From an uncultured Lachnospiraceae bacterium (lineage in GTDB: Bacteria > Bacillota > Clostridia > Lachnospirales > Lachnospiraceae), in contig CAMGZH010000004.1 of NCBI GenBank assembly GCA_946182825.1, positions 40,252 through 104,251 on the forward strand: 64,000 bases of DNA, given 5' to 3'. Positions 1-63,923 of this stretch are shown here, in pieces (position 1 is the first letter of the stretch; the number at the start of each line of letters is the position of its first letter). Below the pieces are notes generated by a model, which saw only the letters and a program-made list of their open reading frames with translations, was not told where the DNA came from and searched no databases. A program made the translations under genes and the position numbers.

Positions 1-354
1 GAAGAAGTAAAGAAAGCAACAGAAGAGGTAAAGAGTAACGCATCAAAGGCTGTAACTGACGCCAAGACAATTGCTAAGAAGGCTTCAACAACAGCTAAGA
101 AGACTACAACAAAGGCAGCATCCACAGCTAAGAAGACTGCTACAAAGGCAGCTTCTAAGGCAACCGTTGCAGAGCCAAAGGTTATCCTTCAGTATGAGGG
201 TAACGACTATGATTTAGCTTCTATCTTAGAGAGTGCTAAGAAGGCATATTCTAAGAGCAAGAAGAGCATCAAGGAAGTAAGCGTATACGTTAAGCCGGAA
301 GATCACAAGGCTTATTATGTAGCTGACGGTAACGTTGGCAGCGTTGATTTCTAA
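1..354 (+). CDS. C-terminal part of a Lys/Ala-rich (histone H1-like) protein with a small C-terminal domain, DUF6465-like; 5' truncated by window edge
   Basis: Frame 1 is open from base 1 to TAA at 352-354: EEVKKATEEVKSNASKAVTDAKTIAKKASTTAKKTTTKAAS...VILQYEGNDYDLASILESAKKAY...VYVKPEDHKAYYVADGNVGSVDF. Confidence 0.7.
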   Translation, partial: EEVKKATEEVKSNASKAVTDAKTIAKKASTTAKKTTTKAASTAKKTATKAASKATVAEPKVILQYEGNDYDLASILESAKKAYSKSKKSIKEVSVYVKPEDHKAYYVADGNVGSVDF

Positions 355-378
355 TTTTGTCCAAGCGAAGATACATGA

Positions 379-413
379 ATCAGCACTCTCATTCAGAGAG
401 TGCTGATTTTTTG
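379..413 (+). terminator. Hairpin ATCAGCACTCTC-ATTCA-GAGAGTGCTGAT followed by a T-run; its arms also match CIRCE (see findings)
   Basis: Perfect inverted repeat plus TTTTTT directly after the upstream CDS. Confidence 0.75.
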
Positions 414-442
414 TTGACTTTTTTTATAGGGGGAACTACAAT
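414..442 (+). promoter_or_regulatory. Sigma-A-type promoter for htpG: TTGACT-N17-TACAAT
   Basis: -35 at 414-419, 17-bp spacer, -10 at 437-442, about 60 bp upstream of htpG. Confidence 0.7.
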
Positions 443-455
443 AGGACTGTTGATA

Positions 456-482
456 TTAGCAGTCGATGAGACTGTTTGCTAA
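456..482 (+). promoter_or_regulatory. Degenerate CIRCE-like (HrcA) operator in the htpG 5' leader
   Basis: TTAGCAGTC-N9-GTTTGCTAA, 15/18 match to TTAGCACTC-N9-GAGTGCTAA with exact 9-9-9 geometry. Confidence 0.5.
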
Positions 483-503
483 CAATATAAAGGAGCGTGT
501 GTT

Positions 504-2561
504 ATGTCAGAAAAACATGGTAGCTTATCCATTACAAGTGAGAATATTTTCCCGGTTATTAAAAAGTGGCTGTATTCAGACCATGATATTTTCTATCGTG
601 AGTTAGTAAGTAACGGCTGTGATGCAATCACCAAGTTGAAGAAGCTGGATATGATGGGAGAGTACGAACTTCCGGAGGGCTTTAAGGCTAAGGTGACCGT
701 TGAGGTGAACCCTGAGAAGAAGACCATTACCATTACAGATAACGGTCTTGGTATGACAGAGGAGGAAGTGGATCAGTATATTAACCAGATCGCTTTTTCC
801 GGTGCAACAGACTTTTTGACCAAGTACAAGGACAAGGGAAATGATGATCAGATCATCGGTCACTTCGGTTTAGGTTTTTACTCTGCCTTTATGGTAGCGG
901 ATGAAGTTCATATTGATACTCTTTCCTATAAGGATGGTGCAACAGCGGTTCATTGGGAGTGCGACGGCGGTACGGAATTTTCCATGAATGACGGTACAAA
1001 GTCTTCTGTCGGTACGTCCATTACTCTCTTTTTGAATGAGGACTGCCTGGAGTTTGCCAATGAGTATCGTGCCCGTGAGGTGTTACAGAAGTATTGTTCC
1101 TTCATGCCGACTGAGATTTATCTTACAAAGGCAGATGCTCCGACGGAGTACGAGGAGATCGATCCGGAAGACAAGAGAGACACCGATACGGTGGTGGAAG
1201 AGATTCATGAGGATGCAAAGTACGAGGAGAAGGAAAAGGAAGACGGAAGCAAGGAAAAGGTCGAGGTTAGTCCTGCCAAAGATAAGCTTAAGATCGTTAA
1301 GCGCCCGGTTCCTTTAAATGATACAAACCCTCTCTGGACAAAGGCACCTTCTGAGTGCAGCGACGAGGATTATAAGGACTTTTACCGCAAGGTATTTATG
1401 GACTATAAGGAGCCGTTGTTCTGGATCCATCTGAATATGGATTATCCGTTTAACCTGAAGGGTATTCTTTACTTCCCTAAGATCAACACCGAGTATGATT
1501 CCATTGAGGGAACCATTAAGCTTTACAACAACCAGGTGTTTGTAGCGGACAACATTAAGGAAGTTATTCCGGAGTTCTTTATGCTCCTTAAGGGTGTGAT
1601 CGATTGTCCGGATCTGCCTCTGAATGTAAGCCGAAGCGCTCTTCAGAACGATGGCTTTGTATCAAAGATCCGTGATTACATCATCAAGAAGGTTGCGGAC
1701 AAGCTTACCGGTCTTTGCAAGACAGAGAAGGAAAGCTATGAGAAGTACTGGGACGATATCAGCCCATTCATTAAGTTTGGTTGCTTAAAGGATACAAAGT
1801 TCTGTGATCGCATGAACGACTATATTCTGTTTAAGGATATCAATGATGCGTATGTAACCCTTCCGGAGCTCTTAGAGGCGGATCAGAAGAAGAAGGAAGA
1901 GGAGAAGGCAGGCGCATCCGAGGAAGGCGAGAATGCTTCTTCTGAGATCAAGGATGAGGATAAGACAGCTGTTTACTATGTTACCGACATGAAGCAGCAG
2001 AGCATGTATGTGGAGATGTTTAAGGATAATGATATGAATGCCGTTATTCTTGATCATGCCATTGATGCATCCTTTATCACACAGCTTGAGCAGCGGAACC
2101 AGCACTACAAGTTCCTTCGCATTGATGCGGATATTACAACGGCACTGGCAGAAGAGACCGATGAGAATGCATACAAGGAAGAGAAGGATACTCTGACGGA
2201 GATCTTTAAGAAGGCTCTTGGAAAAGAGGATCTGACGGTTGAGGTTCAGAAGTTAAAGTCTGCAGATACAGCCGCTGTTATCGGTCGTGATGAGAATATG
2301 CGCCGTATGTCCGATATGATGAAGATGTATTCCATGGGTCAGGGCACCGATGATGCCTTTATGGGACCTGAGACACTCATTCTGAATGCGGATCATGACC
2401 TTGTGAAGTATCTTGTAGCCCATAAGGACAGTGAGCATGCAGATCTCTTTGCACATCAGCTTTACGATCTGGCAGAGATCAGCAATCAGCCGCTTTCACC
2501 GGAAGCTCTTTCCGAGTTTATCAAGAGATCCAATGAGATCATGATGCTTCTGGCAAAATAA
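504..2561 (+). CDS. htpG: Molecular chaperone HtpG (Hsp90)
   Basis: MSEKHGSLSITSENIFPVIKKWLYSDHDIFYRELVSNGCDAITKLKKLD; RBS AAGGAG; full-length Hsp90 architecture. Confidence 0.95.
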   Translation: MSEKHGSLSITSENIFPVIKKWLYSDHDIFYRELVSNGCDAITKLKKLDMMGEYELPEGFKAKVTVEVNPEKKTITITDNGLGMTEEEVDQYINQIAFSGATDFLTKYKDKGNDDQIIGHFGLGFYSAFMVADEVHIDTLSYKDGATAVHWECDGGTEFSMNDGTKSSVGTSITLFLNEDCLEFANEYRAREVLQKYCSFMPTEIYLTKADAPTEYEEIDPEDKRDTDTVVEEIHEDAKYEEKEKEDGSKEKVEVSPAKDKLKIVKRPVPLNDTNPLWTKAPSECSDEDYKDFYRKVFMDYKEPLFWIHLNMDYPFNLKGILYFPKINTEYDSIEGTIKLYNNQVFVADNIKEVIPEFFMLLKGVIDCPDLPLNVSRSALQNDGFVSKIRDYIIKKVADKLTGLCKTEKESYEKYWDDISPFIKFGCLKDTKFCDRMNDYILFKDINDAYVTLPELLEADQKKKEEEKAGASEEGENASSEIKDEDKTAVYYVTDMKQQSMYVEMFKDNDMNAVILDHAIDASFITQLEQRNQHYKFLRIDADITTALAEETDENAYKEEKDTLTEIFKKALGKEDLTVEVQKLKSADTAAVIGRDENMRRMSDMMKMYSMGQGTDDAFMGPETLILNADHDLVKYLVAHKDSEHADLFAHQLYDLAEISNQPLSPEALSEFIKRSNEIMMLLAK

Positions 2562-2683: not shown

Positions 2684-5600
2684 TTATGCGGTTTCCTGTC
2701 CGCTCTGTTCCTTTTTCAGGTTCTTGACTGCGGTGGAAAGCATCAGCTTGATACGGTTGAGCTGGTTGACCTCGGAAGCACCCGGATCATAGTCGATGGC
2801 AGCAATGTTAGCGGTAGGATTTTCCTTGCGGATCTCCTTGATAACACCCTTGCCGACGATGTGGTTCGGCAGGCAACCGAATGGCTGGATACAAACGATA
2901 TTGTTGGCACCTTCGCCAATGAGCTCTAACATCTCGCCGGTAAGGAACCAGCCTTCACCGGTCTGGTTACCCATGGAAACGATGGATTTTGCTTTATCTG
3001 CCGTTTCATTGATGTAGGCTGGTGCTGTGAAGCGTTCACTCTCGTTATAAGCTTCACGGGCTGCCTTACGAAGCCACTCGAAGAAACGGATGCCAAGGTT
3101 TGCGATCCTTGCGCTCTTCTTGGAAAATCCAAGGTTCTCCTCCTTGAAGTTCGTGTTGTAGAAACAGTACAGAAGGAAATCGGTAAGGTCCGGTACCACT
3201 GCCTCAGCGCCTTCCTGCTCCAGAAGATCTGCCAGGTGGTTGTTTGCCATGGGCAGGAACTTGACTAAGATCTCTCCAACGATACCGACTCTTGGCTTTA
3301 CCTCATTTGTGATGGGTAATGTGTCAAAGTCATGGATGATATTCTTACACATCTTCTTGAATTTGCGATGTGAGAGGAAGTGGTCAGAGGAAACAAAGTC
3401 AATGACCTTCTTTTTCCATTTCTCGTGTAAAGCGTTTGCTGAGCCTTTTTCAAGTTCGTAAGGACGAACATGAAGCAAACAGCGTAGGAAGATATCACCG
3501 AAGACAAGGGCATAAAGTCCATGCTGGATGACCTTTGGCGTCAGCTTAAATCCCGGGTTCTTCTCAAGTCCGCTGACGTTGATGGAGATGACCGGAATCT
3601 TCTCGTAGCCGGCTTTAGCCAAGGCACGTCGGATAAAGCCGATGTAGTTACTTGCACGGCAGCCGCCTCCGGTCTGGGAGATCAGAAGGGCAGTGCGCTC
3701 AAGATCATACTTGCCGGATTTCAGTGCGCTCATAAGCTGTCCGATTACGAGGAGGGACGGGTAACAAGCATCGTTGTTGACGTACTTAAGTCCCTGATCG
3801 ATACAATCCTTTGCAGGGATGTCCGGTACAACAATATGGTAGCCGGCTGCATTCATTGCCGGAGCGATGAGATCGAAGTGGATCGGTGACATCTGCGGAC
3901 AAAGAATGGTGTATTCTTTTTTCATCTTCTTGGTAAAGATGGTTCTCTTATAGCTGGAAGGAACGATCTTACGCTTGCTAACGGCGAGCTTGTCGGCACG
4001 ACGCTGACGGACACGGATGGCTGCAAGCAGGGAGCGGATTCGGATCCTGGCAGCGCCAAGGTTATTTACCTCATCGATCTTCAGGCAGGTGTAAATCTTA
4101 CCGGAATGGGAGAGGATGTCATTGACACAGTCGGTCGTTACAGCATCCAGACCGCAACCGAAGGAATTCAACTGGATCACATCCAGGTTCTCGGTCTTTT
4201 TCACATAGTTGGCAGCGGAGTACATTCTGGTGTGGTACATCCACTGATCCATTACGATCAGAGGACGCTCAAGCTTACCCAGGTGGGAAATGGAATCCTC
4301 TGTCAAAACAGCCATGCCATAGGTGGTGATAAGATCCGGAATACCATGATTGATCTCAGGATCAACGTGGTACGGACGGCCGGCAAGAACGATGCCGTGA
4401 CGACCGGTCTCCTTCAGGTAGGCAAGGACTTCCTCACCCTTTTCCTCCATGTCATGACGGAATCTGCCCAGCTCAAACCAGCCGGCATGGGCGGCGTCAC
4501 GGATCTCGCTCTCAGGAATATGGAATTCCTTTGTGAAAACCTTTACCAGTTGTCCTGCCAATGTATCCTCGGATGTGAAGGCCATAAACGGATTAAGGAA
4601 ACGAACCTTACCGGTGGTAATGGCTTCCACGTTGTTCTTGATATTCTCGGCATAGGAGGTAACGATAGGGCAGTTGTAGTGATTGTTACTGCTTGGGAAC
4701 TCGTTACGCTCGTATGGAATACAAGGGTAGAAGATGGTCTTGACACCTTCGTTAATGAGCCACTGTACGTGTCCGTGTGTCAGCTTTGCAGGATAACACT
4801 CGGATTCACTTGGGATACTCTCGATACCAAGCTCGTATACCTTTCGGTTGGACTGAGGTGAGAGAACAACGGAAAATCCGAGCTTACGGAAGAAGGTAGC
4901 CCAGAAAGGATAGTTCTCATACATATTCAGCACACGAGGAATACCGATAACGCCGCGCTTTGCCTGGTCGGCAGGAAGGGGCTCGTAGTTGAAAAGACGC
5001 TTGTACTTGTATTCGTAAAGGTTCGGAATATGATCCTTGTTCTTTTCCTTACCAAGACCACGCTCACATCGGTTTCCGGTAATAAAGCGACGGTTGTCGG
5101 AGAAACGGTTGATGGTGAGCATGCACTTGTTGGTACAACCCTGACAGTGTGTCATCTTTGTCTCAAAGGTAAGATTCAGGATCTCATCCATTGGCAGCAT
5201 GGTTGTGGACTTTACGTCCTCATAGCGCTCACGGGCGATGAGAGCAGCACCGAAGGCGCCCATGATGCCGGCGATATCCGGTCGTGTGACCTTGACACCG
5301 CTGATCTGCTCAAAGGCACGAAGAACAGCGTCATTGTAGAAGGTTCCACCCTGAACAACGACGTTCTTACCAAGCTCCTTCGGGTCGGAGAGCTTGATGA
5401 CCTTAAACAGGGCGTTCTTGATGACGGAATAGGCAAGTCCGGCGGAAATATCCGCAACGGATGCACCTTCCTTCTGCGCCTGCTTAACCTTGGAATTCAT
5501 AAATACGGTACAACGGGTACCAAGATCGATTGGATGCTGGGCAAACAAAGCTTCCTTTGCAAAGTCGCGGACACTGAAGTTAAGGGACTTTGCGAAGGTT

Positions 5601-6967
5601 TCGATGAAGGAACCGCAGCCGGAGGAGCATGCCTCGTTCAGCTGTACGGAATCAACGGTCTGATCCTTGATCTTGATGCACTTCATATCCTGTCCGCCGA
5701 TATCGAGGATACAGTCTACTTCCGGATCAAAGAAGGAAGCGGCATAGTAATGCGCAACGGTCTCGACTTCACCGTCATCGAGCTGGAAGGCGGATTTGAG
5801 GAGAGCTTCGCCGTAACCTGTGGAACAGGAGTGTACGATATGGGCATCGGCAGGAAGCTTTTCTTTGATTTCCTTCATGGCACGAATGGAAGTCAAAAGA
5901 GGAGATCCATTGTTATTGTCATAGAAAGAATATAAAAGCTTACCGTCGTCATCGATCAAAGCAATCTTGGTGGTGGTGGAACCGGCATCAATACCGAGGT
6001 AGACATTGCCCTTGGCTGTCGTGATGTCCCCGGTCTGTACATGGTTGTTACCGTGGCGGGTGACAAAGGCATCGTATTCGGCCTGATCCTTGAAAAGAGG
6101 ATCCATACGGGCAACCTCAAACTCCATGTGCAGCTCACCGGAAAGCTTCTCTTCGATGCTGGAAAGCTCCATGGTGGTGTCTTCCTTGTAGTTAAGAGCA
6201 GAACCGATGGCAGCGAACAGATGTGAGTTCTCCGGAATGATGGTGTGCTCTTCATCAAGCTTTAATGTGCGGATGAAGGTCTCACGCAGCTGATCAAGGA
6301 AGTGTAAAGGACCACCTAGGAAGGCAACATGACCGCGGATGGGCTTACCGCAGGCAAGTCCGGAAATGGTCTGGTTGACCACAGCCTGAAAAATGGAAGC
6401 GGAAAGATCCTCTCTTGTTGCACCCTCGTTGATCAGAGGCTGAATATCGGTTTTCGCAAATACACCGCAGCGGGCAGCAATGGGATAGATGGACTGGTAA
6501 TCCCTGGCATAGGTATTCAGACCGGTTGCATCCGTTTGGATCAGGGAGGCCATCTGATCGATAAAGGAACCGGTTCCACCGGCACAGATACCGTTCATAC
6601 GCTGCTCAACATTGCCGTTCTCGAAGTAAATGATCTTCGCATCCTCACCACCAAGCTCGATGGCAACATCGGTCTTGGGAGCATAGTGGGTAAGGGCGGT
6701 AGCAACGGCAACCACTTCCTGGGCAAAAGGGATCCCAAGATGCTTAGCCAGAGTCAGTCCGCCGGAACCTGTAATGATGGGGGCAACCATAATCTCACCT
6801 GTTACTTGCTTTGCCTTTTTTACAAGTGAAAGCAGTGTCTCACGAATGTTGGCAAAATGACGTTCGTAATCTGAGAACAGTAGATTATCATCTTTGTCGA
6901 GAACCGCAACTTTGACGGTTGTTGAACCGATATCGATCCCCAACTTGTGTAATTCTTTATTACTCAT
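2684..6967 (-). CDS. Giant acyl-CoA dehydratase activase-type protein: two BcrAD/BadFG ASKHA domains fused to a DUF2229/dehydratase-like C-terminus
   Basis: [20 protein letters not shown] and [35 protein letters not shown] and [16 protein letters not shown] activase motifs; start set at MSNKELHK, preceded by AGGTGA. Confidence 0.88.
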
Positions 6968-7078
6968 TGATTCACCTAATTTCATATTAAAATATATTTG
7001 TTGAATAACACAACATTACACATTATAGAGGAGGGAAGAGTCTATTACAATCTACAAATTGTATATTTTGTTGGATTG

Positions 7079-62787: not shown

Positions 62788-62814
62788 TTAGCACTCCAGA
62801 GATTTGAGTGCTAA
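62788..62814 (+). promoter_or_regulatory. CIRCE operator (HrcA binding site), perfect
   Basis: TTAGCACTC-CAGAGATTT-GAGTGCTAA. Confidence 0.97.
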
Positions 62815-62834: not shown

Positions 62835-63923
62835 TTGGCAGAGAAAACAGAGCTTACAGAACGTCAGGAGAAGATCCTGAACGTTATCATCCGTAACTAT
62901 CTTGAGACCGGTGAGCCGGTAGGCAGCCGTACCATTTCCAAGAATTCGGATCTGAATTTAAGTTCCGCTACCATACGAAATGAAATGAGTGACCTTGAGG
63001 AGATGGGATATATCCTACAGCCTCATACATCGGCAGGACGAATTCCTTCCGATAAGGGCTACCGGTTTTTCGTAGATAATCTTCTGGCACAGAAGGATCA
63101 GGAGATCAATGATGTGAAGGAGATGGTGGTCGAGCGTACGGATCAGATGGAGAAGATGCTCAAGCAGGTGGTTAAGGTGCTTGCAAATTCTACGCAGTAC
63201 GCAACCATGATCTCGGCTCCGGCGGTTCGGGGGATCCGGGTTCGCTTTGTTCAGCTTTCCGCGGTAAACGATCATGAGCTTTTATCTGTTGTTGTAATGG
63301 ATGGTAATGTGGTTCGGAACCGGATCATTAAGCTGGAACAGAGTCTTAGCAATGAAGATATTCTTAAGCTGAACATGCTTTTGAATACCAATCTCTCAGG
63401 ACTTACCGTGAATGATATTAATCTGGCGCTGATTCAGAAGATGCGACAGAATGCAGGTTCCTACTCCGGGATCATTGCAGAGGTTTTGGAGAATATTGCA
63501 GGAACCATTGAAGCGGATGAGGATCGTGAGATCTACACCAGTGGAGCGACGAATATCTTTAAGTATCCGGAGCTTTCCGATTCGGAGCGGGCATCCCATC
63601 TGATCTCCGCTTTTGAAGACAAGGGAGAACTGAAGGAACTGATCGAGGATATTGAGTCCGATGAAGAGGGTAATCCCAATGGGATTAAGGTCTACATCGG
63701 TAATGACATTCCCAATATGCAGGATTGCAGTGTTGTAACTGCAAAGTATGATTTGGGAGACGGTTTCAAGGGAACCATTGGAATCTTAGGTCCGAAGCGT
63801 ATGGATTATGAGAATGTCATGAAGCAGTTGAAGAAGCTGAAGTCACAGTTGGGTGACATCGTTCATTCGTCAGAACTTCCCGGAGAATCTTCTGTTAAAG
63901 GAATCGGGAAGAAAGAATCATAA
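62835..63923 (+). CDS. hrcA: Heat-inducible transcription repressor HrcA
   Basis: ELTERQEKILNVIIRNYLETGEPVGSRTISKNSDLNLSSATIRNEMSDLEEMGYILQPHTSAGRIPSDKGYRFFV; TTG start 4 nt after GGAGGTGG. Confidence 0.95.
   Translation: MAEKTELTERQEKILNVIIRNYLETGEPVGSRTISKNSDLNLSSATIRNEMSDLEEMGYILQPHTSAGRIPSDKGYRFFVDNLLAQKDQEINDVKEMVVERTDQMEKMLKQVVKVLANSTQYATMISAPAVRGIRVRFVQLSAVNDHELLSVVVMDGNVVRNRIIKLEQSLSNEDILKLNMLLNTNLSGLTVNDINLALIQKMRQNAGSYSGIIAEVLENIAGTIEADEDREIYTSGATNIFKYPELSDSERASHLISAFEDKGELKELIEDIESDEEGNPNGIKVYIGNDIPNMQDCSVVTAKYDLGDGFKGTIGILGPKRMDYENVMKQLKKLKSQLGDIVHSSELPGESSVKGIGKKES

Follow-up and report, generated by a model that had tools for sequence, protein, structure and literature searches.

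The htpG gene of this uncultured Lachnospiraceae bacterium is preceded by two CIRCE-like elements, one on each side of its promoter. We favor, as the probable reading of the sequence comparisons, two HrcA operators flanking the promoter, the ancestral upstream one acting as the main operator and the downstream one as an auxiliary and probably weak operator. The features considered below are listed with their positions in the window (the whole stretch of 64,000 nucleotides that was analyzed).

1..354, plus strand: end of the upstream gene, DUF6465 family (Pfam PF20069, E 7e-23), the 5' end of which lies beyond the window
352-354, plus strand: stop codon of the DUF6465 gene, read from the sequence
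377..409, plus strand: terminator-like hairpin containing the upstream CIRCE, 14 pairs and a T-run (TTTTTT)
380..406, no strand assigned: upstream CIRCE, 16/18; proposed primary HrcA operator
414..419, plus strand: htpG -35 TTGACT, its position relative to the CIRCE conserved
437..442, plus strand: htpG -10 TACAAT, conserved in the genus alignment
456..482, no strand assigned: downstream degenerate CIRCE, 15/18 arm letters; candidate auxiliary HrcA operator
489..495, plus strand: htpG ribosome-binding site AAAGGAG, read from the sequence
504..2561, plus strand: htpG, Hsp90 chaperone, 685 aa (Pfam PF00183, HSP90, E 1e-59)
62788..62814, no strand assigned: perfect CIRCE of hrcA, found by pattern scan
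62835..63923, plus strand: hrcA, 362 aa (Pfam PF01628, E 1e-63), the sole HrcA gene found in the genome

On the minus strand, a 1433-aa ORF (2684-6985) adjoins htpG; by eye, it resembles a fusion of a 2-hydroxyacyl-CoA dehydratase activator and subunit.

CIRCE-like elements in the htpG leader

The htpG promoter is formed by TTGACT and TACAAT hexamers separated by a 17-nt spacer. The element at 456-482 reads TTAGCAGTC-GATGAGACT-GTTTGCTAA (two arms and a 9-nt spacer) and fits the 27-nt CIRCE frame, deviating at three arm letters from the consensus used for scoring, TTAGCACTC-N9-GAGTGCTAA with a 9-nt spacer. A rescan reproduced the sequence, the coordinates, and the score of 15/18 reported for this element in the initial annotation. 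Its start 13 nt past the htpG -10 was likewise correct, as was the similar placement of the perfect hrcA CIRCE relative to the promoter of that gene. The site after the -10 corresponds to the CIRCE position downstream of a promoter, and the trailing CAA/TAA is the same as at hrcA and groES.

The same htpG leader contains a better CIRCE match, at 380-406, which the initial annotation did not include. This upstream element, TCAGCACTC-N9-GAGTGCTGA, agrees with the consensus in 16 of the 18 arm letters, retains the intact GCACTC-N9-GAGTGC core and ends 7 nt before the -35 motif. In a position-weight model trained on 44 CIRCEs of the genus, which themselves reached 26-35 bits, 380-406 scored 20.0 bits and 456-482 scored 14.0 bits, a level at which approximately 0.1 sites are expected per genome. 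When up to three mismatches were allowed, shuffled sequences gave an expectation of 0.01 matches per 64 kb, and the search of the whole genome (2.36 Mb) returned seven real places versus two for the reversed-pattern control. Since about two chance sites per genome are to be expected at this threshold, it is conservation that decides on 456-482.

The upstream CIRCE in Lachnospiraceae and other Clostridia

The upstream site was surveyed in 80 htpG loci from other Lachnospiraceae-like genomes, 74 of them outside the genus and with a scorable leader. All 74 leaders carried a CIRCE (61 perfect, 10 at 17/18, two at 16/18, and one at 15/18), separated from the TTGA motif by exactly 7 nt in 70 cases. 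The same arrangement was present in several other families of Clostridia in a class-wide sample. Judged from these alignments, the upstream htpG CIRCE is the ancestral and widespread site.

With such conservation of the CIRCE at 380-406 across the Lachnospiraceae and further clostridial families, the weak site was not the means by which htpG "joined" the HrcA regulon, contrary to what had been suggested. There is good support for placing htpG in the HrcA class; the entry via a weaker operator lacks such support, the ancestral 380-406 being the proposed primary site. The accompanying contrast with Bacillus subtilis, in which htpG stands outside the CIRCE class, does not carry over either. HrcA/CIRCE control of htpG was proposed in Clostridium acetobutylicum (PMC3828012), and an exact CIRCE was described upstream of hsp90 in C. 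cellulovorans (PMC8336468), so the difference from B. subtilis does not make the present case unusual. The htpG of the window resembles these Clostridium genes in having a CIRCE upstream and belonging to the HrcA class, but it differs from them in the 16/18 match of the upstream site and in the second, degenerate site downstream of the promoter. The view derived from B. subtilis, that htpG escapes HrcA control, is thereby corrected for the Lachnospiraceae, a dominant gut family, with a gap of exactly 7 bp between the CIRCE and the htpG -35 in nearly the entire sample.

The upstream CIRCE is also contained in a predicted hairpin (377-409; RNA fold of -22.4 kcal/mol, z -6.8) that has the sequence form of an intrinsic terminator, a G+C-containing stem followed by a T-run, directly 3' of the DUF6465 gene. 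Such a strong terminator-like structure would fit the initial proposal in its strict form, with HrcA acting on htpG via the weak operator alone and 380-406 merely terminating transcription of the upstream gene. We consider this very improbable, since the orthologous perfect CIRCEs keep the fixed 9-nt spacer and the 7-nt gap to the -35 with the neighboring gene in either direction, and the nearest relatives lacking the weak site carry a perfect upstream CIRCE. A rough ORF heuristic placed the closest upstream ORF in the same direction as htpG at 36 loci and in the opposite direction at 36. Because the element persists whichever way the neighbor points, it is part of the htpG promoter and more than a terminator; a role of 380-406 as a terminator alone was rejected on the same grounds. 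At five htpG loci (L073, L076, L079, L084, L096), an A-rich sequence (TAAAAAATCC, TAAAAATGTC) replaces the T-run after the upstream CIRCE. The spacing to the -35 is unchanged at these loci, so the terminator form is dispensable.

Conservation and origin of the downstream element

The conservation of 456-482 in related htpG leaders, which the initial annotation had named as a check, was found in 10 of 12 congeners. All ten carry TTAGCARTC-N10-KTKGCTAA past the -10; in the remaining two leaders, the second site is absent and the upstream CIRCE is perfect. On the HtpG protein tree, the ten genomes with the downstream site form one clade (support 100/100), and therefore a single gain of the site suffices. 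On the evidence of these alignments and of the tree, the downstream site is a later, clade-specific addition that was gained once within the genus. In the same clade, some of the outer TTA/TAA letters of the upstream site have been lost while its GCACTC-N9-GAGTGC core is invariant; the association between the gain of the second site and the changes in the upstream one comes from one branch. Start to start, the two sites lie 76 bp apart in the subclade of the window and in two other genomes; in the remaining genomes the distance is 68 bp. An independent case is provided by the more distant genome L087, with an upstream site of 18/18 and a downstream site of 17/18 lying 80 bp apart.

HtpG identity among the ten genomes with the downstream site falls to approximately 76%, and the spacer and the flanks of the site have diverged. 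Invariant columns make up 14 of 18 in the arms versus one of nine in the spacer (one-sided Fisher test, approximately 0.002, a value that ignores phylogeny). A functionless chance resemblance is already unlikely because of this conservation. The reversed-pattern control, with its two or so sites expected per genome at up to three mismatches, would speak for chance, but the element is correctly placed within a heat-shock gene leader and has been kept in ten genomes against a diverging background, so we give this explanation hardly any credence.

The orthologous downstream sites match CIRCE at 13-15 of 18 arm letters overall and at 13-14 in the sister subclade, where they score from -2.4 to 6.6 bits and would be missed by a plain CIRCE scan. 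Their departures from the consensus recur across species: position 7 is G or A, and the right arm lacks GAGT. The exact downstream motif, searched for in 13 genomes, matched at htpG alone, in the ten genomes; with one mismatch allowed in all 13 genomes, the control gave at most one match and the extra matches were lon CIRCEs. With this distribution, a separate regulon for the degenerate motif was rejected.

The scores far from CIRCE and the recurrent non-CIRCE letters in the sister subclade would also agree with HrcA acting on htpG via the upstream CIRCE only, 456-482 being kept for another DNA-binding protein or for a message-stabilizing 5' mRNA hairpin. Another binding protein could also produce the recurrent departures, and the RNA of the window can pair AGCAGUC with GACUGUU (z -2.2). 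The predicted RNA folds vary by species, however, and their consensus reaches just -1.6 kcal/mol; as no conserved fold was seen among the orthologs, the RNA-element reading is not supported. Against the upstream-only explanation as a whole stand the exact CIRCE frame, the position and the trailing letters that have been kept at 456-482, a comparable change of the arm at lon, and the presence of one hrcA with no second HrcA paralog or HrcA-like gene in the whole-genome search. Taken together, we regard it as rather unlikely and prefer a second HrcA operator at 456-482.

The HrcA regulon and a putative mechanism at htpG

The genome contains five perfect CIRCEs, at groES, hrcA, hsp20 (C16:55684-55710), clpB (C19:15998-16024), and lon (C38:7974-8000). 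In the 12 congeneric genomes, almost every CIRCE detected at two mismatches or fewer precedes hrcA, groES, hsp20, clpB, lon, or htpG; two sites near contig ends (L177 and L208) were left without a gene. The lon CIRCE is present in every genus genome in which it was found (the genome of the window, G000, and the loci L178, L183, L200, L204, L210, L224, and L226-L228). Its right arm has been altered repeatedly, to GAGTGCTAC, GACTGCTAA, or GGTTGCTAA; the hrcA CIRCEs are perfect, as are those of groES with few exceptions. In three congeners, GGTTGCTAA replaces GAGTGCTAA in the lon CIRCE, the other genomes having 17-18 of 18 letters at the same position. By analogy, the altered right arm at lon, similar to that of 456-482, suggests that HrcA tolerates such arms. 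CIRCE control of lon and clpB illustrates how broad the HrcA regulon is, and lon offers the parallel for the altered right arms. Both genes also belong to the HrcA regulon of Spiroplasma melliferum, according to PMC5138195.

On the strength of its match and conservation, 380-406 is very likely bound by HrcA, and binding at 456-482 is fairly likely. Against the downstream operator speak its three mutations versus the limit of two inferred for functional CIRCEs of Mycoplasma gallisepticum (PMC5138195). With the htpG transcription start placed near 449, an assumed 7 nt past the -10, the upstream operator would cover about -69 to -43 and abut the -35, so that bound HrcA would hinder polymerase binding. 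In the mechanism that we propose, the main repression would come from HrcA at 380-406 excluding RNA polymerase until HrcA loses its activity under heat or another folding stress. For transcripts coming from the DUF6465 gene, this DNA also forms a predicted terminator-like hairpin. The downstream operator would cover about +8 to +34, where hrcA, groES, and lon also have their CIRCEs, and could add repression by blocking promoter escape or via HrcA bound on both sides of the promoter. This additional repression may set the share of HrcA devoted to htpG. A more elaborate scheme, which we find doubtful, has HrcA bridging two unequal operators across the htpG promoter (68 or 76 bp apart) in the genus, one with the inner CIRCE contacts only and the other with mainly the outer ones; the quality of the operators would order the release of the heat-shock genes, and the upstream operator would double as a terminator.

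Two CIRCEs at one heat-shock promoter are described for dnaK of Lactococcus lactis (cited in PMC1676014) and for dnaK and clpB of Spiroplasma melliferum, where some copies have decayed (PMC5138195). Since such promoters were already known, the htpG case extends known biology and adds no new system. The L. lactis dnaK sites overlap the promoter, whereas here the gene is htpG and the sites flank its promoter; unlike in the two-CIRCE promoters of L. lactis and Spiroplasma, the weak copy at htpG has been retained in ten species. Within the genus, operator quality forms a natural series, from perfect sites at hrcA and nearly all groES genes through an altered arm at lon to a pair of imperfect sites at htpG, which lends itself to tests of how the strength of an operator grades the heat-shock release.

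Some further observations concern CtsR and the hsp20 and clpB sites. Neither the Pfam model of CtsR nor a B. subtilis CtsR query gave a match in the genome, but the Pfam model missed the B. subtilis control as well, and the result carries no weight for an absence of CtsR; clpB and lon carry CIRCEs in this genome. At hsp20 and clpB, the -35 motif (TTGACG or TTGACA) sits within the CIRCE itself, as seen in G000 and at the loci L180, L184, L185, L190, L194, L196, L199, L209, L213, L214, L217, L219, and L220. The hsp20 and clpB CIRCEs of many congeners have one arm letter altered, from GAGTGCTAA to CAGTGCTAA, which yields the consensus -35 TTGACA.
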